DNA from: a virus
Virus record (IMG/VR): IMGVR_UViG_3300027749_000536
Span: 1-21,033 of that record
Length of the DNA: 21,033 nt
Reading direction: 5' to 3' (one strand)
The notes under the pieces were generated by a model. It did not search any database. It saw only the letters and a list, made by a program, of their open reading frames with translations, and was not told where the DNA came from. Both the position numbers and the translations under genes were made by a program. Below are positions 391 through 8,607 of this stretch, piece by piece; the stretch's first letter is position 1; the number at the start of each line of letters is the position of its first letter.

Positions 391-692
391 GCCGTCTAGC
401 CCTGTTTGGTAGACCTTGGGTAGTATTTGATGCTGGCAACAAGGAACACAGACAGTGGTTTGCCGACTTCAACAAGTCGGGTGCATGGGGTACATGTCCT
501 GTTCGATTCGTAGTAGATAATGATCATGGCGATTTGGTCACGATGATCCAGCGATTGTTGATCCAGTACTATGTGGATAAAGAGTTTGGCACAGAGAAGA
601 ACCCACGGGTGCGGCCTAAAACTGTGGCAAAAAAGCCACAGTCTAAGTTGGCTAAGGTGGTTGACAGTCTGGCTAAAAGGCCTTATAATTAA
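387..692 (+). CDS. conserved hypothetical phage protein, 101 aa
   Basis: Start ATG overlaps the previous stop (ATGA). The N-terminal two thirds reads as a compact fold with WVVFDAGNKEHRQWFADF, then W-G-T-C-P-V-R-F and an amphipathic segment (MIQRLLIQYYVDKEFG). The last 25 residues are Lys/Arg rich (VRPKTVAKKPQSKLAKVV), suggesting nucleic-acid contact. It looks like a small protein family of T4-like phages without known function. The promoter of the next gene (TTGACA 661, TATAAT 684) is embedded in its last codons. Confidence 0.65.
   Translation: MSRLALFGRPWVVFDAGNKEHRQWFADFNKSGAWGTCPVRFVVDNDHGDLVTMIQRLLIQYYVDKEFGTEKNPRVRPKTVAKKPQSKLAKVVDSLAKRPYN
661..689 (+). promoter_or_regulatory. sigma70 promoter for the 722 gene
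   Basis: TTGACA (661-666), 17-nt spacer, TATAAT (684-689): a perfect consensus match located inside the end of the upstream gene. The -10 box sits at the centre of a small palindrome (GCCTTA-TAAT-TAAGGC). The leader to ATG 722 is about 30 nt and ends with AGGAGCTA. Confidence 0.85.
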
Positions 693-721
693 GGCTTACA
701 CACACTAAACAGGAGCTAGAT

Positions 722-1075
722 ATGCAAGCAGTCTCAACATTGATCACTCAAGAAGCTGTCCAAGACGCAGTCAACGAAGCAGGTATCCAGGCACGTACAG
801 CGGCCAAGGCATTCCACGCCAAGCATGGCGATCGTGATGCTTGTGGATTTGCTTGGGTTAACATCTACGGTGTTCGCTCAAACAGCAAGCTGGGCAAGTG
901 GTTGGCGGCCGCAGGCTTCCGCAAAGACTACACGGGTGCATTGTGCCTGTGGAATCCAAGTGGTTTCCCAACCCAATCGATCAGCATCCTGGAAGCAGGT
1001 GCAGAAGCCTACGCAGAGGTTATCAAGTCCAAATTGGGCTTGGACAAGGTCTACGCTGGAAGCAGAATGGACTAA
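722..1075 (+). CDS. conserved hypothetical phage protein, 117 aa
   Basis: A strong AGGAGC ribosome-binding site lies 8 nt before ATG. The protein has an Ala-rich N-terminal helical region and a conserved-looking centre (DACGFAWVNIYGVRSNSKLG, then GFRKDYTGALCLWNPSG). It ends with an Ala-rich helix and a SRMD tail. Gly/Trp/Asn signatures of this kind occur in a widespread phage family of unknown role. It has its own promoter and is probably expressed early. No catalytic motif is apparent. Confidence 0.75.
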   Translation: MQAVSTLITQEAVQDAVNEAGIQARTAAKAFHAKHGDRDACGFAWVNIYGVRSNSKLGKWLAAAGFRKDYTGALCLWNPSGFPTQSISILEAGAEAYAEVIKSKLGLDKVYAGSRMD

Positions 1076-1087
1076 AAGAATACGGTT

Positions 1088-1122
1088 TGGTTAGCCAAAA
1101 GTCATTGACAAACGGCTAACCA
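1088..1122. repeat. inverted repeat around a -35 box
   Basis: TGGTTAGCC (1088-1096) and GGCTAACCA (1114-1122) are perfect 9-nt inverted arms. The TTGACA of the next promoter (1105-1110) lies in the 17-nt interval. This could be an operator for a repressor or activator, or a hairpin in read-through RNA; there is no T-run, so it is not a classic terminator. Confidence 0.55.
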
Positions 1123-1133
1123 GACTGTATAAT
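1105..1133 (+). promoter_or_regulatory. sigma70 promoter for the 1199 gene
   Basis: TTGACA (1105-1110), 17-nt spacer, TATAAT (1128-1133): a perfect match. The leader to ATG 1199 is about 60 nt, longer than most in this array. Confidence 0.85.
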
Positions 1134-1198
1134 AGAGACATGCAGAGAAGATAGGCTTCAAAGCATTAATAACACACAGAGAAAAAGGAAACTTTAAA

Positions 1199-1555
1199 AT
1201 GGCTACAGATAAATTGTTTACGGTTGTTGGTACATCAACTCTTGATGGCGTGACTAAGGTTCGCTTTGCGAACGACACCCTGCGTACCAAAGTACTGCAG
1301 AAGCACGGTCACACTGACATTAATTTGGTTGAGTTGGACACTGCTATGACTAAGCTGGAGGCTGTTCAAGCTATTCAGTCTGGTGATGAGTTTGCGAGTG
1401 CATCTTGCCAGGCTGCGATTGCTGACTACTTGGATGCTAATGCACCTAAGGTCAAGGCAGTGGCAACTCCTACTGCAACTAAGAAGGCCGCTCCTAAGGC
1501 CAAGGCAACTGCAAAGGTTGCTGTGGATGCTGAACTCGAAGACACTCCATTTTAA
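1199..1555 (+). CDS. conserved phage protein with SSB-like C-terminal tip, 118 aa
   Basis: The start is ATG 1199, with AAAAAGGAAA as ribosome-binding site. Residues 1-75 form the folded part (LFTVVGTSTLDGVTKVRFAN, then HGHTDINLVEL), a pattern I recall from small conserved phage proteins. Residues 82-107 are an Ala/Lys/Thr/Pro linker (KKAAPKAKATAK). The protein ends in an acidic tip with terminal Pro-Phe (ELEDTPF). That arrangement, a flexible linker followed by an acidic -PF end, mimics bacterial SSB, whose DDDIPF tip recruits replication and repair proteins. The function is unknown; a role at ssDNA or in capturing host SSB partners is inference. Confidence 0.75.
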   Translation: MATDKLFTVVGTSTLDGVTKVRFANDTLRTKVLQKHGHTDINLVELDTAMTKLEAVQAIQSGDEFASASCQAAIADYLDANAPKVKAVATPTATKKAAPKAKATAKVAVDAELEDTPF

Positions 1556-1561
1556 TCCAAC

Positions 1562-1602
1562 ACACCGTATCGCAAGGTTAAATAGATCATGCGATACGGT
1601 GT
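1562..1602 (+). promoter_or_regulatory. 13-bp hairpin covering the start codon of the next gene
   Basis: ACACCGTATCGCA (1562-1574) and TGCGATACGGTGT (1590-1602) are a perfect 13-nt inverted repeat with a 15-nt loop. The ATG of the 61-aa gene (1589-1591) is at the loop/3'-arm junction and its first codons are in the arm. In an RNA read from upstream this would block translation start. The loop holds TTAAATA (1578-1584), a weak late-promoter-like motif. Confidence 0.7.
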
Positions 1603-1774
1603 TTCATATTCAACAGACTACTTAAACGGGTGCGTGGTTATCCGTGATTTCAAGAGCGTGCCAATCGGGCGAGTACTGGCAATCATTCCAAGAGATAATA
1701 GACATGAGGCTGAACAAGAAGCACAGCGTATCAGCGATCTATTAAACAAGGACGAAGTAAAGAAATCATCATGA
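1589..1774 (+). CDS. small phage protein, 61 aa, unknown
   Basis: The protein is basic/acidic mixed, with a beta-rich first half (MRYGVSYSTDYLNGCVVIRD) and a charged helical end (NRHEAEQEAQRISDLLNK). The start codon lies in a 13-bp hairpin and there is no good Shine-Dalgarno (only AGG at 1575-1577), so translation is probably conditional. The stop overlaps the next start (ATGA at 1771-1774). No domain is recognised. Confidence 0.65.
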   Translation: MRYGVSYSTDYLNGCVVIRDFKSVPIGRVLAIIPRDNRHEAEQEAQRISDLLNKDEVKKSS

Positions 1775-1962
1775 GTTGGGTACAATACGAAGTTTGGTGT
1801 GTCGAGCAAGACGGCCACGAAGAACTAGTCGACACGACTAACAGTCTAAAAGAGGCTAAGCGAATAGCTGAAGCTGCATTGACAGACGGGATCATAGAGT
1901 GTATAATATACAAAGACGAAGACGGTGAACTGTTCGAAGAAGAAGTCATCGCAAAAGAATAA
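1771..1962 (+). CDS. conserved hypothetical phage protein, 63 aa
   Basis: Coupled to the preceding gene by ATGA. The small acidic protein begins with a strand (YEVWCVEQDGHEEL), followed by an amphipathic helix (SLKEAKRIAEAAL) and a strand (ECIIYKDEDGE). The alternation fits a compact alpha/beta fold common among short T4-like phage proteins of unknown role. Its stop is one base before the tRNA-Leu gene, so mRNA and tRNA precursor are probably one transcript. Confidence 0.65.
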   Translation: MSWVQYEVWCVEQDGHEELVDTTNSLKEAKRIAEAALTDGIIECIIYKDEDGELFEEEVIAKE

Positions 1963-1963
1963 C

Positions 1964-2048
1964 GCTCCGATGGTGAAATAGGTAGACACAAGAGACTTAA
2001 AATCTCTCGCCGCAAGGCATGCCGGTTCGATTCCGGCTCGGAGCACCA
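1964..2048 (+). tRNA. tRNA-Leu (anticodon TAA)
   Basis: The acceptor arms GCTCCGA and TCGGAGC pair perfectly, with discriminator A and encoded CCA. The anticodon stem GAGA/TCTC carries loop CTTAAAA, so the anticodon is TAA. There is a long variable arm (CGCCGCAAGGCATG region), as expected for Leu, and T-arm GGTTCGATTCC. It would read TTA/TTG, frequent in the AT-rich genes on the other strand. Confidence 0.93.
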
Positions 2049-2052
2049 GTTA

Positions 2053-2130
2053 GGGCCGTTAGCTCATGTTGGTTAGAGCAGTGGACTCATAATCCATTGG
2101 TGCTGTGTTCGACTCACAGACGGCCCACCA
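2053..2130 (+). tRNA. tRNA with anticodon CAT (Met or lysidine-type Ile)
   Basis: Acceptor GGGCCGT/ACGGCCC, discriminator A and CCA are encoded. D-arm AGCTC..GAGC, anticodon loop CTCATAA (CAT), and T-arm CTGTG-TTCGACT-CACAG are all visible. The G1-C72 pair excludes an initiator. The anticodon stem (G27-U43) and the TTGG variable region resemble E. coli tRNA-Ile2 (reads AUA after lysidine modification) as much as elongator Met, so identity is left open. Confidence 0.92.
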
Positions 2131-2133
2131 AAT

Positions 2134-2210
<77 letters not shown>

Positions 2211-2222
2211 ATATCCCATCGG

Positions 2223-2251
2223 TTGACAGGGTTTCTGTTTGACGCTATAAT
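2223..2251 (+). promoter_or_regulatory. sigma70 promoter for the 2283 gene
   Basis: TTGACA (2223-2228), 17-nt spacer, TATAAT (2246-2251): perfect. The bases after the -10 (TAAGGCT) match those after the 684 TATAAT, so the two promoters share a downstream module. It begins 12 nt after tRNA-Arg. Confidence 0.87.
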
Positions 2252-2282
2252 TAAGGCTACAGTAAACAACAAGGAGCGCGAT

Positions 2283-2474
2283 ATGGGATACAAGGTTTTG
2301 GACACCGTAGACATGATGCGTGACAACTATGGCCCACGCAAGGGCCTAGAAGGTCCTTACAACTTCTCGGGCAGAGTGTTGTATTATGACAACAAAGAAG
2401 GCAAGTACTGGGACCCACGTACAGACTTCTATGTGCCGCATGAAGAGTACTTTCGGTTGACAGGGTTGATGTAA
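2283..2474 (+). CDS. small phage protein, 63 aa, unknown
   Basis: The start at ATG 2283 is chosen because AAGGAGCGCG stands just upstream; the in-frame ATG at 2223 belongs to the promoter. The sequence is rich in Tyr, Asp and Gly (MGYKVLDTVDMMRDNYGPRK, then YDNKEGKYWDPRTDFYVP) with no helix-rich or membrane segment. It is monocistronic, and the next promoter overlaps its stop. No known domain is recognised. Confidence 0.7.
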   Translation: MGYKVLDTVDMMRDNYGPRKGLEGPYNFSGRVLYYDNKEGKYWDPRTDFYVPHEEYFRLTGLM

Positions 2475-2485
2475 TCCTGTATAAT
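2457..2485 (+). promoter_or_regulatory. sigma70 promoter for the 2518 gene
   Basis: TTGACA (2457-2462), 17-nt spacer, TATAAT (2480-2485): a perfect match overlapping the end of the upstream gene. The leader contains CATAGACA and AAGGAGCGA (GGAGCGA at 2506-2512). Confidence 0.87.
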
Positions 2486-2517
2486 TAACACATAGACAGC
2501 AACAAGGAGCGAACCAA

Positions 2518-2832
2518 ATGGCTAAACTACTGATCACTACACAGGTTTACGAGAACTACGGCGCCCATGATTGGGACGGCGTTGGTCAGTGCCCACAGTA
2601 CTGGAAAGCCAAGGGCGGTTCGGACTACGTGGTCAAGAAGTTCAAAGACCTCAACAAGGTCACTGAAGTGGTCATGTGCCTGCGCTCGCAGATCGAGTGC
2701 GACAACGAAGGCTTCCGCGAAACGATTATCGGATGGGAGATCGTGGGCGACAAGCACCTCACAGAGTTTGAGCAGAGCCAACTGGACTATGAAGGCTCCA
2801 TCCGTTTCCCCTCTAAGGAGTTGGCATGGTAA
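2518..2832 (+). CDS. conserved hypothetical phage protein, 104 aa
   Basis: Start ATG 2518 is 5 nt after GGAGCGA. The N-terminal motif (MAKLLITTQVYENYGAHDWD, then G-x-G-x-C-P-x-Y-W) is a pattern I recognise from many T4-like and other large phages, always without assigned function. The rest is mixed alpha/beta with a KDLNKVTEVV helix and an acidic C-terminal half. A 149-codon frame on the opposite strand overlaps it but lacks coding character. The last 7 nt overlap the next gene. Confidence 0.8.
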   Translation: MAKLLITTQVYENYGAHDWDGVGQCPQYWKAKGGSDYVVKKFKDLNKVTEVVMCLRSQIECDNEGFRETIIGWEIVGDKHLTEFEQSQLDYEGSIRFPSKELAW

Positions 2833-3050
2833 GAGATCACATTGAGATTGACGCCCGCCACGGTGGCCCTTACGATCGTGGCTCAGCAGACAGCTACTAC
2901 CGCAGAAGCTATAACCCCCACTACTATGTGGCTGGCACTGGTAGTTCACCACGAGTGCCACTTGCCCGCATGACACCCAACGAGATTGTGGCCTACACCG
3001 CAGGCTTCCGTGACAACGAAGACAGCGGCGACCACAAGGAATGGCAATAA
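2826..3050 (+). CDS. conserved hypothetical phage protein, 74 aa
   Basis: ATG 2826 lies inside the end of the preceding gene, giving coupled expression. The protein has the recognisable pattern HGGPYDRGSADSYYRR, then MTPNEIVAYTAGFRDN and a DHKEW ending. This Tyr/Arg-rich pattern is seen in small conserved proteins of aquatic T4-like phages of unknown role. The stop lies in the left arm of an inverted repeat around the next promoter's -35. Confidence 0.75.
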   Translation: MVRDHIEIDARHGGPYDRGSADSYYRRSYNPHYYVAGTGSSPRVPLARMTPNEIVAYTAGFRDNEDSGDHKEWQ

Positions 3051-3073
3051 CCCTTCGGTTGACTGGGTTATTG
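3045..3073. repeat. inverted repeat around a -35 box
   Basis: CAATAACCC (3045-3053) and GGGTTATTG (3065-3073) are perfect 9-nt arms. The 11-nt interval TTCGGTTGACT contains the -35 TTGACT. It repeats the design seen at 1088-1122 with different arm sequences. No T-run follows. Confidence 0.55.
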
Positions 3074-3087
3074 ATTGGTGCTATAAT
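3059..3087 (+). promoter_or_regulatory. sigma70 promoter for the 3115 gene
   Basis: TTGACT (3059-3064), 17-nt spacer, TATAAT (3082-3087). The leader carries CATAGACA and AAAGGAGC. Confidence 0.85.
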
Positions 3088-3114
3088 ACATACATAGACA
3101 ACAAAGGAGCTAAA

Positions 3115-3309
3115 ATGAAAGATTCCACTGCAATGTTTCTCGTAGTAGCAGGACTAGTATTAACCCTGTTGGGCGTAGGCGGCATTGAGGCTAGTATGGA
3201 TAACGTAGGTTTGGCACAGGGCCTCCTTGTTGCCATCGTAGGACTAATGACCATGGGTGCAGGCGTGCTGGCTATCCGTGTTAACAGCTCAACTAATTAC
3301 TACAACTAA
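3115..3309 (+). CDS. small two-helix membrane protein, 64 aa
   Basis: ATG 3115 follows AAAGGAGC; the upstream in-frame ATG (2986) lies in the previous gene and is not used. Residues 7-24 (MFLVVAGLVLTLLGVGGI) and about 33-54 (LAQGLLVAIVGLMTMGAG) are two Gly-rich hydrophobic segments with a short loop. The result is a small hairpin membrane protein with polar ends. Similar short proteins occur in aquatic T4-like phages. A role in modifying the host inner membrane early in infection is inference; a holin is less likely from its place in the early array. Confidence 0.75.
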   Translation: MKDSTAMFLVVAGLVLTLLGVGGIEASMDNVGLAQGLLVAIVGLMTMGAGVLAIRVNSSTNYYN

Positions 3310-3313
3310 TTGG

Positions 3314-3342
3314 TTGACAGGCTACTGATAAGACAGTATAAT
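3314..3342 (+). promoter_or_regulatory. sigma70 promoter with long leader, upstream of 3474 gene
   Basis: TTGACA (3314-3319), 17-nt spacer, TATAAT (3337-3342): perfect. The next real start is 131 nt downstream, unlike the 25-32 nt leaders of most sibling promoters. Confidence 0.87.
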
Positions 3343-3473
3343 AGATACATAGACAGAAGCAAGGCGATCCTCAAATGTAAGAACCCAGCAGAAATGCAAA
3401 AAGGGTTGTAACCAAGGGATACGAGAGAGTTTGGAGACTCTGCCTAAGCTAACACAACACACAGGAGCGACCT
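3343..3473 (+). other. long leader with start-stop ORF
   Basis: The leader begins with the module shared by sibling genes (CATAGACA then AAGGCGA). Where the ATG is expected it has ATGTAA (3375-3380), a start codon followed directly by stop. A second mini-frame (ATG 3394 to TAA 3411, five sense codons) lies in a possible AACCC/GGGTT hairpin (from 3382). GAGT/ACTC-type pairing occurs further down. It may be a relic of a lost gene or a regulatory leader; no known riboswitch is recognised. Confidence 0.4.
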
Positions 3474-3767
3474 ATGCGTACAATACAAGAGATCAACACT
3501 GCCATTATCCAAGGCGGCCTTACTAACGATGAGCTGGTCAGCATCATTGATGCAGTCAAATTTGCACGTAGCCGGTTGGCGCAGGCAACCAAATACAGCC
3601 TGCGCATTGGTGACAACGTGGAGTTTACCAGCTCAAAGACAGGACGCTTGACCCGAGGCCATGTGACCAAGATTGCCATTAAATACGTGACTGTGGATAC
3701 GGGCATGGGCCAATGGCGAGTGCCGGCTAACATGTTGTCCAAAGTGGATGACAGAGCCTACGCTTAA
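3474..3767 (+). CDS. conserved hypothetical phage protein, 97 aa, SH3/KOW-like C-terminus
   Basis: GGAGCGA (3464-3470) precedes the ATG. Residues 1-38 are helical (LTNDELVSIIDAVKFARSRL). Residues 44-90 look like a small beta barrel (LRIGDNVEFTSSKTGRLTRG, then VTVDTGMGQWRVPANMLSKV), of the SH3/KOW-like kind that binds nucleic acid or protein. The fold is inferred from the pattern of basic and glycine turns. The family seems common in T4-like phages, without known role. Confidence 0.75.
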   Translation: MRTIQEINTAIIQGGLTNDELVSIIDAVKFARSRLAQATKYSLRIGDNVEFTSSKTGRLTRGHVTKIAIKYVTVDTGMGQWRVPANMLSKVDDRAYA

Positions 3768-3776
3768 TAGTATAAT
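3748..3776 (+). promoter_or_regulatory. sigma70 promoter for the AAA ATPase gene
   Basis: ATGACA (3748-3753; one mismatch to TTGACA), 17-nt spacer, TATAAT (3771-3776). The leader to ATG 3802 is 25 nt and contains GGAGCGA (3793-3799). Confidence 0.75.
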
Positions 3777-3801
3777 AAACACTTAACACACAGGAGCGAC
3801 T

Positions 3802-4671
3802 ATGGCGACTAAAGGATATAAAGTTTTGAGCTTGGACACTATGACTACAACTAAGAGCCTAGAGCAGAAGGCAGTAGAGAAGAATCTAACGGAAACGGAC
3901 GAGCAGATCAAAGATCGTATGCGTCAACGTTTTGACATTGCAGACGAGATGACTCGTGCTGTAAAGAAGGGTGACATACGTGCAATGATCATGACTGGTC
4001 CCCCGGGTGTAGGCAAATCGTTTGGAGTTGAGCAGGTCCTGGCCAAGCATGACATGTTTGCGGACATTGCCAACGACTCTAAGCTGAAGAAGTATGAAGT
4101 GGTTAAAGGCGCTATGAGTGCCATTGGACTCTACAAGAAGCTGTATGAGTTCAGCGATAAGAAGAGCATCCTAGTGTTCGATGACTGTGACTCAGTACTG
4201 TTAGATGACTTGTCATTGAACATACTTAAGGCAGCATTGGACTCAGGTAAGAAGCGTATGATCTGTTGGAACACTGACAGTAGACTCTTACGTAGTGAGG
4301 GGGTGCCCAACTCATTCGAGTTCAAGGGTGGTGCAATCTTTATCACTAACATTAAGTTTGAGAACGTTAAGAGCAAGAAGCTACAGGATCACTTGGCAGC
4401 ACTAGAGTCACGCTGCCACTACTTGGACTTGACTATTGATACTGAGCGTGAGAAGATCTTGCGCATTGAACAGATCGTAGAAGACGGCATGCTCAAGGAC
4501 TATGAGTTCGAACAGTACACTGTGGACGAGATACTCACGTTCATCAAGGACAATAAGAAGAAGCTGCGAGAGCTGAGCTTGCGTATGGTGCTCAAGCTAG
4601 CAGACCTTAAGAAGAGTATGCCCGGCAACTGGCGTGCTGTTGCAGAGGTTACATGTATGCGTAGAGCATAA
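3802..4671 (+). CDS. AAA-family ATPase, 289 aa
   Basis: Walker A GPPGVGKS at residues 66-73, Walker B ILVFDDCD at 123-130 and a sensor-1-like stretch FITN near 176-179 identify a single AAA module, with a helical N-terminus (1-55) and a helical lid (about 210-289). AAA proteins use ATP to remodel protein or nucleic-acid complexes; the partner here is unknown. It is the last and largest gene of the plus-strand array, has its own promoter, and its RBS carries GGAGCGA. Its 3' region contains the hairpins described separately. It is not a clamp loader of gp44 type: those have SRC and Zn-type features not seen here. Confidence 0.85.
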   Translation: MATKGYKVLSLDTMTTTKSLEQKAVEKNLTETDEQIKDRMRQRFDIADEMTRAVKKGDIRAMIMTGPPGVGKSFGVEQVLAKHDMFADIANDSKLKKYEVVKGAMSAIGLYKKLYEFSDKKSILVFDDCDSVLLDDLSLNILKAALDSGKKRMICWNTDSRLLRSEGVPNSFEFKGGAIFITNIKFENVKSKKLQDHLAALESRCHYLDLTIDTEREKILRIEQIVEDGMLKDYEFEQYTVDEILTFIKDNKKKLRELSLRMVLKLADLKKSMPGNWRAVAEVTCMRRA

Positions 4672-4696: not shown

Positions 4697-4731
4697 ATAC
4701 ACGTAGGTCCGATTCGCTCCCGGCTGTGTAT
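4697..4731 (+). ncRNA. hairpin 1 with anti-RBS loop
   Basis: Outer stem ATACAC (4697-4702)/GTGTAT (4726-4731) encloses the core TCCGATTCGCTCCCGG (4708-4723). In the core CCG/CGG can pair, leaving loop ATTCGCTCC. TCGCTCC (4714-4720) is the exact complement of the GGAGCGA ribosome-binding sites at 2506, 3464 and 3793. The same 16-nt core recurs in the terminator hairpin, while the outer stems differ. Confidence 0.55.
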
Positions 4732-4750
4732 TTAGCAGGCTGGCCCAGGT

Positions 4751-4768
4751 AAACACTGAGAGGTGTTT
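4751..4768 (+). ncRNA. GNRA-capped hairpin between the twin hairpins
   Basis: AAACACT (4751-4757) pairs with GGTGTTT (4762-4768, one G-U) and closes a GAGA tetraloop of the GNRA class. It sits between the two hairpins with the shared core, suggesting one compact RNA. Confidence 0.5.
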
Positions 4769-4769
4769 C

Positions 4770-4816
4770 AAATCCTAACTGATCCGATTCGCTCCCGGTA
4801 GGTTAGGATTTTTTTT
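4770..4816 (+). terminator. intrinsic terminator whose loop repeats the anti-RBS core
   Basis: AAATCCTAAC (4770-4779) pairs perfectly with GTTAGGATTT (4802-4811), and eight T (4809-4816) complete an intrinsic terminator of the plus-strand array. The 22-nt loop is unusually long for a terminator. It contains the same core TCCGATTCGCTCCCGG (4783-4798), with TCGCTCC at 4789-4795. Confidence 0.8.
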
Positions 4817-5025
4817 GACCTCGGTGGCCGGTGGTCGGGGTATATTATTTCATGGTCGGGGCATTATAATTACAATTATTAGTTGTTATTTTACAACACT
4901 TAGTGGTGCTAAATCACCACCACAGAAAGAAAAGTACTCCACCTTAATTTTTTGCGCGGCAATTTTTTTTGGACTGTAGACCCATTTCGGGCAGAATAAA
5001 TACCTACTAACACCAGGGGGTGATC
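4817..5025. other. AT-rich intergenic region
   Basis: No coding frame is supported. It holds a direct repeat TGGTCGGGG (4832-4840 and 4853-4861, 21 nt apart), each followed by an AT box (TATATT 4841, TATAAT 4865). It also has a GTGGTG/CACCAC hairpin (4903-4920), two T-runs (4946-4952 and 4963-4970) and a late-promoter-like AATAAATA (4995-5002). It may contain start sites or protein-binding sites. Confidence 0.4.
4995..5002 (+). promoter_or_regulatory. late-promoter-like AATAAATA
   Basis: It matches the NATAAATA form of the T4 late promoter (T4: TATAAATA, read by gp55-type sigma). It is 24 nt before the 50-aa gene at 5026. Confidence 0.45.
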
Positions 5026-5683: not shown

Positions 5684-6109
5684 CTAGCTGTATTGGTAGT
5701 TGACCGAGGTAGCGTTGTCGGCTAGTACAGTAGCACCATTGCTTAGGTGGAACTTGCGAGCCATTTCAGTCTTGGGACTTAATGTTACATAACGAGTAAT
5801 CTCGGGTCTATTGGTGGCTATGTGCATTCTGGCAGCACGAATCAATCTGCGTCCCGCGCCGGGTGCGTATGACCAAATGGTATAGAAAGCCGCTACATTT
5901 GATCCAGTTTTACCCAGTTCACTTTCCGTTCGGGGTACTTCGGCTAGATAGGCAACACATACCACTGCTGTGGGTTGATCGTCTTCTACAAGTACCAGTA
6001 TTTCAGCATGATCGTGTACACGGGCTGCTGTGGGGATTGAAGGACGAACAGGGTCATCCTTGACCAGATCGATCAGTGGATCGTTGAGATTCGTTATAAT
6101 TTTTAACAT
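5684..6109 (-). CDS. GNAT-like acetyltransferase, 141 aa
   Basis: The order of elements fits a small GNAT fold: beta strands near 36-56 (AEILVLVEDDQPTAVVCVAY), FYTIW at 75-79, the acetyl-CoA loop-like SYAPGAGRRLI at 80-90 with helix, and a final NGATVLADNATSVNYQYS. GNAT enzymes move an acetyl group from acetyl-CoA to an amine; the substrate is unknown. The P-G-A-G-R loop is the main support, matching R/Q-x-x-G-x-G/A loosely. Related small proteins occur in aquatic T4-like phages. It could alternatively be an inactive GNAT-fold virion protein. Confidence 0.65.
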   Translation of the reverse strand: MLKIITNLNDPLIDLVKDDPVRPSIPTAARVHDHAEILVLVEDDQPTAVVCVAYLAEVPRTESELGKTGSNVAAFYTIWSYAPGAGRRLIRAARMHIATNRPEITRYVTLSPKTEMARKFHLSNGATVLADNATSVNYQYS

Positions 6110-7647: not shown

Positions 7648-7676
7648 ATTATACTTTCTTTATGTGCGAATAGCAA
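7648..7676 (-). promoter_or_regulatory. promoter directly before the gp41 start
   Basis: On the minus strand TTGCTA (7676-7671), 17 nt, TATAAT (7653-7648), then six bases and ATG 7641. The expected start of transcription coincides with the ATG, so the mRNA may be leaderless. Confidence 0.5.
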
Positions 7677-8607
7677 TGTGTTTGACAGGATCCCACTGAT
7701 ATTTCCACTCTCTTTGTTTGGTGTGGTACAATACTGCCCCTATACTACTGCTTGGGTCACCAGGATTTGGTAGTGACCACCGATATTTGAATGCAGGTTC
7801 TACAAACTTTTTATTAGCGTCTGAATTCATAGCACACCCACCCATATACACAAGACAATCAGTGTTAATTAATTTTCTAGCTTCCATCATAATCATACCA
7901 ACTTGTCCTTCAAATGCATCTTGTACTGCGGCCGCAATATCACATTGATCTTGTAACGTGTCAATAGGATAAGGCCAGTTCAGTACACCTCGATGTAGGT
8001 TGTAGTTTAAATTAAGTGTGTTACTGATATAGTTGTTAACTTCTTTAAAATATCGCCATTTGTTGCCTTGCTCTGCCATCTTTTGTAGCAAGTATTCATC
8101 TTTGATAGGCGTTAATCCCACAAACTGAGTAAAGGCACTGTAGAACAATCCCAAGCTATGTGGATAACCACGACTCCACACTTTCTTCATTTCACCGTGT
8201 TTAGCTTCCCAAATAGTAGCACATTCAAACTCCCCAATAGCATCTAACACAACCACAGCACAGTGATTAAAAGGACTGGTATAATAACCTGCTGCCGCGT
8301 GACTAGCATGATGCGGAGTGTAGGTGATAGGTGCATAGTGAGCCCTTATTTTTTTTAGATATCGTCTAGGTAATACTGACAGGTCTAATGCTGTACGATA
8401 CTGGCCAGCATATACTTGTCTTGCCTTTTTAATCCAAGGACGCTCATACCAAAAGACTCGATCCGGCGCACCTTGATGCAGTGCTTTACTAATAAGTGAT
8501 GAGTCTAATTCATCATCTTTACATGTTGCCCATGAGTGCAGTATGCTATCCTTAAATACAGCCAGGCTCGAGCCGTGATTAAGAGCACTTATCCCCCACT
8601 GTATCAT
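7660..8607 (-). CDS. carbamoyltransferase, NodU/TobZ-like, Kae1 domain only, 315 aa
   Basis: Family motifs: HHASHAAAGYYTSPF at 99-113, VVLDAIGEFE at 119-128, LFYSAFTQFVGLTPIKDEY at 154-172 and YMGGCAMNSDANKK at 254-267. These mark the Kae1-like domain that transfers carbamoyl from carbamoyl-adenylate. Full-length NodU, CmcH or TobZ proteins are about 550-600 residues and add a C-terminal YrdC-like domain that makes carbamoyl-adenylate; this protein stops before it. The start is coupled (ATGA) to the 36-aa gene behind the primase. Its place among replication genes suggests a nucleic-acid substrate; phage enzymes of this family are reported to carbamoylate 5-hydroxymethylcytosine. The substrate here is inference. 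Confidence 0.85.
   Translation of the reverse strand: MIQWGISALNHGSSLAVFKDSILHSWATCKDDELDSSLISKALHQGAPDRVFWYERPWIKKARQVYAGQYRTALDLSVLPRRYLKKIRAHYAPITYTPHHASHAAAGYYTSPFNHCAVVVLDAIGEFECATIWEAKHGEMKKVWSRGYPHSLGLFYSAFTQFVGLTPIKDEYLLQKMAEQGNKWRYFKEVNNYISNTLNLNYNLHRGVLNWPYPIDTLQDQCDIAAAVQDAFEGQVGMIMMEARKLINTDCLVYMGGCAMNSDANKKFVEPAFKYRWSLPNPGDPSSSIGAVLYHTKQREWKYQWDPVKHIAIRT

Follow-up and report, generated by a model that had tools for sequence, protein, structure and literature searches.

Twin hairpins at the 3' end of an early gene block in T4-like phages carry a conserved loop complementary to early ribosome-binding sites: a candidate anti-Shine-Dalgarno RNA

Results

The window, by which we mean the whole 21,033-nucleotide stretch of DNA that was analysed (IMG/VR record IMGVR_UViG_3300027749_000536), is a 21-kb virus record and probably a genome fragment, in which open reading frames and start sites are mechanical calls. 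Its minus strand encodes T4-like replication genes (helicase, primase, UvsX-like, single-strand-binding), and a carbamoyltransferase-like gene (phrog_1601) is found at 7660-8607 (-) between the helicase and primase genes. On the plus strand, a block of small genes and three tRNA genes leads up to an AAA ATPase gene, at the 3' end of which lie the hairpins considered here (Table 1). Every promoter listed for this block is directed toward the hairpins, and a search allowing large loops revealed no clear terminator between 600 and 5000 other than hairpin 2. The three tRNA genes (1964-2207, +) are located inside the early block, and their processing could also shorten early transcripts. At the gathering threshold, Rfam 15 reports these three tRNAs in the window and no other family; at a relaxed threshold, the best match in the hairpin region reaches 18.8 bits against a threshold of 43 bits.

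Table 1. Early-block features, hairpins and predicted target sites in the window (duplex energies are predictions for pairing with the hairpin loop)
Feature	Position	Strand	Description
Eight sigma-70-type promoters	661-689, 1105-1133, 1879-1907, 2223-2251, 2457-2485, 3059-3087, 3314-3342, 3748-3776	+	all within 661-3776; six perfect (12/12), two 11/12
Partial RBS GGAGCG(C)	2273-2278	+	63-aa early gene (ATG 2283); predicted duplex -11.2 kcal/mol
RBS GGAGCGAA	2506-2513	+	104-aa early gene (ATG 2518); predicted duplex -14.3 kcal/mol
RBS GGAGCGA	3464-3470	+	97-aa early gene (ATG 3474); predicted duplex -13.1 kcal/mol
RBS GGAGCGA	3793-3799	+	AAA ATPase itself (ATG 3802); predicted duplex -13.1 kcal/mol
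AAA ATPase gene	3802-4671	+	289 aa, phrog_1250, function not assigned; hairpins at its 3' end; itself a predicted target
Hairpin 1	4697-4731	+	stem ATACAC/GTGTAT; core 4708-4723; anti-RBS seed TTCGCTCC at 4713-4720
GNRA-type spacer hairpin	4751-4768	+	AAACACT-GAGA-GGTGTTT
Hairpin 2, intrinsic terminator	4770-4816	+	stem AAATCCTAAC/GTTAGGATTT (4770-4811), then T run
Core of hairpin 2	4783-4798	+	anti-RBS seed TTCGCTCC at 4788-4795

A sequence-only reading of this DNA had described an identical 16-nt core on two hairpins with unrelated outer stems, a GNRA hairpin between them and a terminator closing the 3' region, and each of these elements is found at the locus. The core, TCCGATTCGCTCCCGG, occurs in two exact copies, no further copy exists in the window even when 3 mismatches are allowed, and none of 100 shuffles yields two matches. 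The predicted fold of hairpin 1 is weak (-7.7 kcal/mol, z -0.4); this hairpin is kept in relatives as the first of two. Hairpin 2, with its T run, is predicted to be very stable (-15.7 kcal/mol, z -4.1). Like 3'-UTR-derived sRNAs, the window hairpins thus combine an mRNA 3' end with an intrinsic terminator.

The same reading had pointed out that the loop is complementary to the phage's own early ribosome-binding sites (RBS). Indeed, the complement GGAGCGA at 2506, 3464 and 3793, as well as GGAGCGC at 2273, directly precedes an ATG in all four cases, with 8-nt pairing at 2506 and 6-nt pairing at 2273; three full sites and one partial site make up these predicted targets in the 21-kb window. Minus-strand genes use other sites such as TAGGAGA, as had been proposed. 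For most of the remaining starts in the window, predicted loop duplexes range from -2 to -10 kcal/mol, the exceptions being a minus-strand start at 6109 (-15.0 kcal/mol) and a doubtful GTG start at 5020 (-12.9 kcal/mol). The first of these belongs to the gene at 5684-6109 (-), whose RBS region, GGTAGCGAATC-ATG, is without GGAG and pairs with the loop over AGCGAATC plus GG; it may be a further target.

An exact-core scan of viral contigs returned at least 119 stretches with the motif. Among the matches listed, 116 core occurrences sit in hairpins with complementary arms, 7 are of RBS type, that is, on the strand opposite a gene and immediately ahead of its ATG, and 5 are of other kinds. Most hairpins are found directly behind the same AAA ATPase (class 1, to which the window hairpins belong); class-2 hairpins lie about 800-930 nt further, between a gene of about 90 aa and one of about 210 aa, and some genomes bear an additional copy 6-10 kb away. 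The loop is present in about 74 of the 80 best ATPase relatives, a sample picked without regard to the motif. Once the contexts had been read, we gave up the hypothesis of a mobile element flanked by two core copies. A search of genome contigs (257 billion bases) with a 15-mer gave matches scattered over unrelated bacteria, as chance predicts.

Comparison of the hairpins separates loop from stem. GATTCGCTCCC is read in 173 of 190 distinct type-A hairpins, and the innermost G-C pair is replaced with compensation by T-A, G-C or, rarely, A-T. The next pair outward is CG in 145, TA in 24, GT in 2, GC in 2 and AT in 1, so that 96% are paired against 80% expected from composition, and the second pair outward is paired in 85% against an expected 69%. 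In 77-90% of predicted folds the loop bases stay free of pairing, and shuffled flanks cost about 4.5 kcal/mol. Since the loop is invariant and its neighbouring pairs vary with compensation, the stem seems to be needed merely as a stem and, on this comparative evidence, it is the loop that is under selection, in line with what had been read from the window's two copies. The repetition of hairpins with an identical, predicted-unpaired loop on divergent stems is also the hallmark of cuckoo-type RNAs (see Discussion).

Such extreme conservation and the presence of tandem copies would fit a protein as ligand, and the loop might be the site of a phage repressor, antiterminator or RNA-stability factor, its complementarity to the RBS having another cause; T4 itself acts through the RegA and RegB proteins at early translation starts (PMC3014915). 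A protein, however, would be expected to find the same sequence at its targets and not the complementary one. The sequence-only reading had kept a protein-binding loop as an alternative, and complementarity to the RBS is not something that such a loop predicts. The joint change described below speaks against it as well, and we regard this explanation as quite improbable.

The AAA ATPase next to the hairpins served to score, in 163 distinct loci, to what extent loop and RBS change together; presence of the motif was used for scoring, the automatic hairpin test being too strict on account of internal loops. In 120 of the 163 loci, the downstream hairpins have unrelated stems and the loop TCGCTCC (loop A), and the RBS of these loci read GGAGCGA 425 times and GAGGGCA 4 times. 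A second loop, TGCCCTC (loop B), occupies the same place in 10 loci as called, of which 9 are genuine (L288, L297, L424-L429 and L447); here the early RBS read GAGGGCA 34 times and GGAGCGA twice. The tenth call, L476, was a match within coding sequence, and on the tree this locus counts as "none". Hairpins are absent from 23 of the 163 loci, which together hold one GGAGCGA and no GAGGGCA; the remaining ATPase loci are cut short or show both motifs. Counted by locus, RBS and loop agree in 108 cases, disagree in none and tie in 12 for loop A, and agree in 9 and disagree in none for loop B. Predicted duplexes are about -14 kcal/mol for cognate and about -6 kcal/mol for swapped loop/RBS pairs. A Fisher test of the association on site counts gives p of about 1e-44; phylogenetic relatedness makes these counts non-independent.

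On the ATPase tree, loop B is confined to one clade, and a nested clade, which we read as marine from its contig group, has lost both the hairpin and the RBS extension; other hairpin-less lineages are likewise without the extension. As loop B sits in one clade and the loss is nested, the history reduces to one joint switch and a few joint losses or gains, and the passage from A to B is, as far as the tree tells, essentially a single event; the 1-2 independent pairs on the tree mostly agree and are too few for a formal test. Loops varying independently of the early RBS, an outcome that had been named in advance as adverse, did not appear in the locus-by-locus count. What is expected of an antisense RNA, namely complementarity to RBS beyond chance and joint change of both partners, is thus observed, the latter through one switch event. 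The joint switch to TGCCCTC/GAGGGCA and the disappearance of the extension where the hairpin is absent support the proposal that the loops match the phage's own early RBS and are conserved for that reason.

These observations also bear on two further explanations. The loop could bind 16S rRNA helix 24, where GGGAGCGAA occurs in many bacteria, and hamper host ribosomes, the likeness to RBS being secondary. The duplex predicted with the comparison helix-24 variant GGGGAGCGAAC (-16.2 kcal/mol) is stronger than most RBS duplexes. Yet in the 30S subunit this stretch of 16S rRNA belongs to a helix, and neither the confinement of GGAGCGA RBS to hairpin bearers nor the pairing of TGCCCTC with GAGGGCA finds an explanation there. 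Because the second loop type and the RBS enrichment stay unaccounted for, we disfavour pairing with the 16S 790 region, which the sequence-only reading had offered as its other alternative, and consider it very improbable. Alternatively, the hairpins might be ordinary terminators whose tip has no regulatory meaning, matched by chance to an RBS habit of the lineage. Hairpin 2 is a good terminator, but no T run follows hairpin 1 or the class-2 copies, two different loop/RBS pairs exist, and the strength of the loop-RBS association, even if its sites are not phylogenetically independent, makes this explanation hardly credible.

Whole-contig counts extend the picture. Of eight long contigs that bear hairpins, seven have GGAGCGA as their commonest GGAGNNN at starts, and in G031, G002 and G012 the majority of GGAGCGA copies lie at starts. 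Its share of GGAG starts is 431/1125 in hairpin-bearing loci and 1/127 in hairpin-less relatives. Outside the hairpins, matches of at least 9 nt to the core complement in the eight long contigs fall mostly at RBS. Per whole contig, GGAGCGA-ATG and GAGGGCA-ATG number 13/0 in G031, 11/0 in G002, 17/0 in G048 and 15/0 in G049, and 3/14 in the loop-B contig G043.

Predicted targets are not confined to the early block. A gene in each of L005, L007, L021, L070/L073, L080 and L109 has the complete 16-nt core complement as its RBS, mostly a few bases behind a TAAATAC-type sequence, which we take to resemble the T4 late promoter; such late-gene leaders of relatives bear the complement directly before the ATG. 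G032 combines hairpins behind the ATPase with a 16-nt-complement RBS ahead of a gene for a 93-aa membrane-like protein. A recurrent predicted target is the RBS of csgF homologues (Pfam PF10614), which in three phage lineages matches the complement over 16, 13 and 9 nt, and in G034 the RBS of a curlin-repeat protein shows 9 nt of it. The curli parts encoded by phages of this group (CsgF, curlin repeats and a CsgG-like lipoprotein) are found in G034 (the contig of L248, 65274-72323), L005 and G032; their genes are probably late genes.

No near relative of the locus was found by BLAST against isolated phages, and no isolate of the clade is present in the phage collection searched. The closest ATPase among isolated phages belongs to the PA5oct group (about 50% identity). 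A 50-kb stretch of PA5oct contains no core, and GGAGCGA starts number 0 in this stretch and in a 50-kb stretch of T4. An RNA-seq-based "putative lncRNA" is annotated at L492 41117-41735, which corresponds to 246116-246734 of Pseudomonas phage PA5oct, about 2 kb upstream of this nearest cultured ATPase homologue; the loop core was not found in the stretch.

Discussion

The hairpin structure, the conservation of the loop, the enrichment of its complement at RBS and the joint change of both are read directly from the sequences compared, and a selected pairing of some kind between loop and RBS, in trans or in cis, appears to us very probable. How this pairing would operate is best considered from the layout of the early block. 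Transcripts from many strong early promoters would all reach the one terminator that follows the AAA ATPase gene and, if all early transcripts end there, early mRNAs would bear the hairpins at their 3' end. The hairpins could act as part of these mRNAs or as a stable 3' fragment, since mRNA decay can leave such a terminator-capped fragment. The exposed loop 5'-AUUCGCUCC-3' would pair with GGAGCGA(A) at early RBS, that of the ATPase included, and with some late-gene leaders, blocking ribosome binding and perhaps exposing the duplex to RNase. With every early promoter leading to one terminator, the amount of hairpin RNA would mirror total early transcription: the more early RNA, the stronger the shut-off of early translation, a delayed self-limitation.

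From these sequence features we infer the accumulation or release of the RNA, its repressive effect, its action in trans and its timing; a discrete RNA of 100-150 nt that acts in trans and represses its targets is plausible. We hold it probable, with some reserve, that the hairpins are the active part of a phage anti-Shine-Dalgarno RNA repressing early and some late genes in trans. Against this reading weigh the weak fold of the window's hairpin 1, the short pairing (7-9 nt) at most targets and a loop switch that amounts to a single event, with 1-2 independent pairs on the tree.

In a rival reading the pairing is real and acts purely in cis: the early mRNA would fold back, its 3' hairpins covering RBS of the same molecule, and no discrete trans-acting RNA would be involved. 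Since the eight promoters all point to one terminator, early mRNAs would bear both pairing partners, and in G031, G002, G012 and G049 the targets are grouped on the strand of the hairpins, no more than about 12 kb upstream of them. Not all predicted targets, however, are placed in this way: the 93-aa gene and csgF of G032, csgF and curlin genes of G034, and isolated sites in G047, G048 and G051 are located away from this region or on the opposite strand. As the csgF, curlin and 16-nt-site genes are not in the early transcript, the latter could not regulate them in cis, and we consider an exclusively cis mechanism unlikely.

T4-like phages are a textbook case of early gene shut-off driven by proteins. 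Returning to the trans-acting RNA, it is tempting to extend it to a large T4-like clade, in which early transcripts would share a 3' end whose base-pairing RNA exerts early shut-off, and a private RBS code, GGAGCGA or GAGGGCA, would mark the regulated genes. This code would have changed once, in the loop and in many RBS at the same time. We lean slightly towards this wider reading. If it is true, no cross-regulation is expected between phages of the two codes.

Among known systems, the closest in form are the alpha-r14 or "cuckoo" sRNAs (NfeR1, Sinorhizobium), chromosomal stress sRNAs with three hairpins, one ultraconserved anti-Shine-Dalgarno loop, divergent stems and redundant seeds, which occlude the RBS of their targets by pairing (PMC10746234), as is predicted for the phage. 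Their loop, CCUCCUCCC, aims at the generic Shine-Dalgarno sequence, whereas the phage loop, UUCGCUCC or UGCCCUC, takes the place of that motif in the hairpins and reads beyond the Shine-Dalgarno sequence into a private extension; moreover, the phage hairpins stand at the 3' end of a phage early mRNA and have phage genes as targets. In phage context, the nearest is the c4 antisense RNA of P1 and P7, also a phage RNA that blocks a phage RBS through complementary stretches probably located in loops (PMC12197685). c4, however, has a single target, the ant mRNA, on the same transcript and serves immunity, whereas the hairpins have many predicted targets and no Rfam match; no ant gene was identified in the window. 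In purpose, the hairpins resemble the RegB endoribonuclease and the RegA translational repressor of T4, which shut off early genes at GGAG RBS or translation starts (PMC3014915), but these are proteins and the phage feature consists of non-coding hairpins. The Staphylococcus aureus sRNA RsaE likewise carries a C-rich (UCCC) motif, for which pairing with targets and inhibition of the ribosomal initiation complex have been proposed (PMC9266662), although RsaE is a host sRNA. By their defining features, the hairpins belong to none of the three closest systems, alpha-r14/cuckoo, c4 and RegA/RegB. For RsaE, we know of no joint change of a loop and a private RBS extension.

We found no report of these hairpins in the open-access literature, and a text search of papers for the exact core was also empty. 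According to a review, no small trans-acting regulatory RNA has been functionally characterised from T4, and related genomes might suggest candidates (PMC3014915). The hairpins are such a candidate in T4-like phages and are common among uncultured ones. Their simple complementarity code allows targets to be predicted from sequence alone, giving a putative regulon of roughly 10-17 sites per long contig. The natural switch of loop and RBS comes close to the classical compensatory experiment, and loop/RBS pairs of this kind might find use as orthogonal translation switches. Two loci depart from the usual architecture: L276 has, in place of the usual pair with GATTCGCTCCC, four tandem hairpins 83-240 nt behind the ATPase, mostly with the loop GAATCGCTCCC, and L273 has two hairpins 20-60 nt behind the ATPase (CTCG-TCGCTCC-CGAG and CCCG-TCGCTCC-CGGG), whose shortened loop consists of the seven seed bases.
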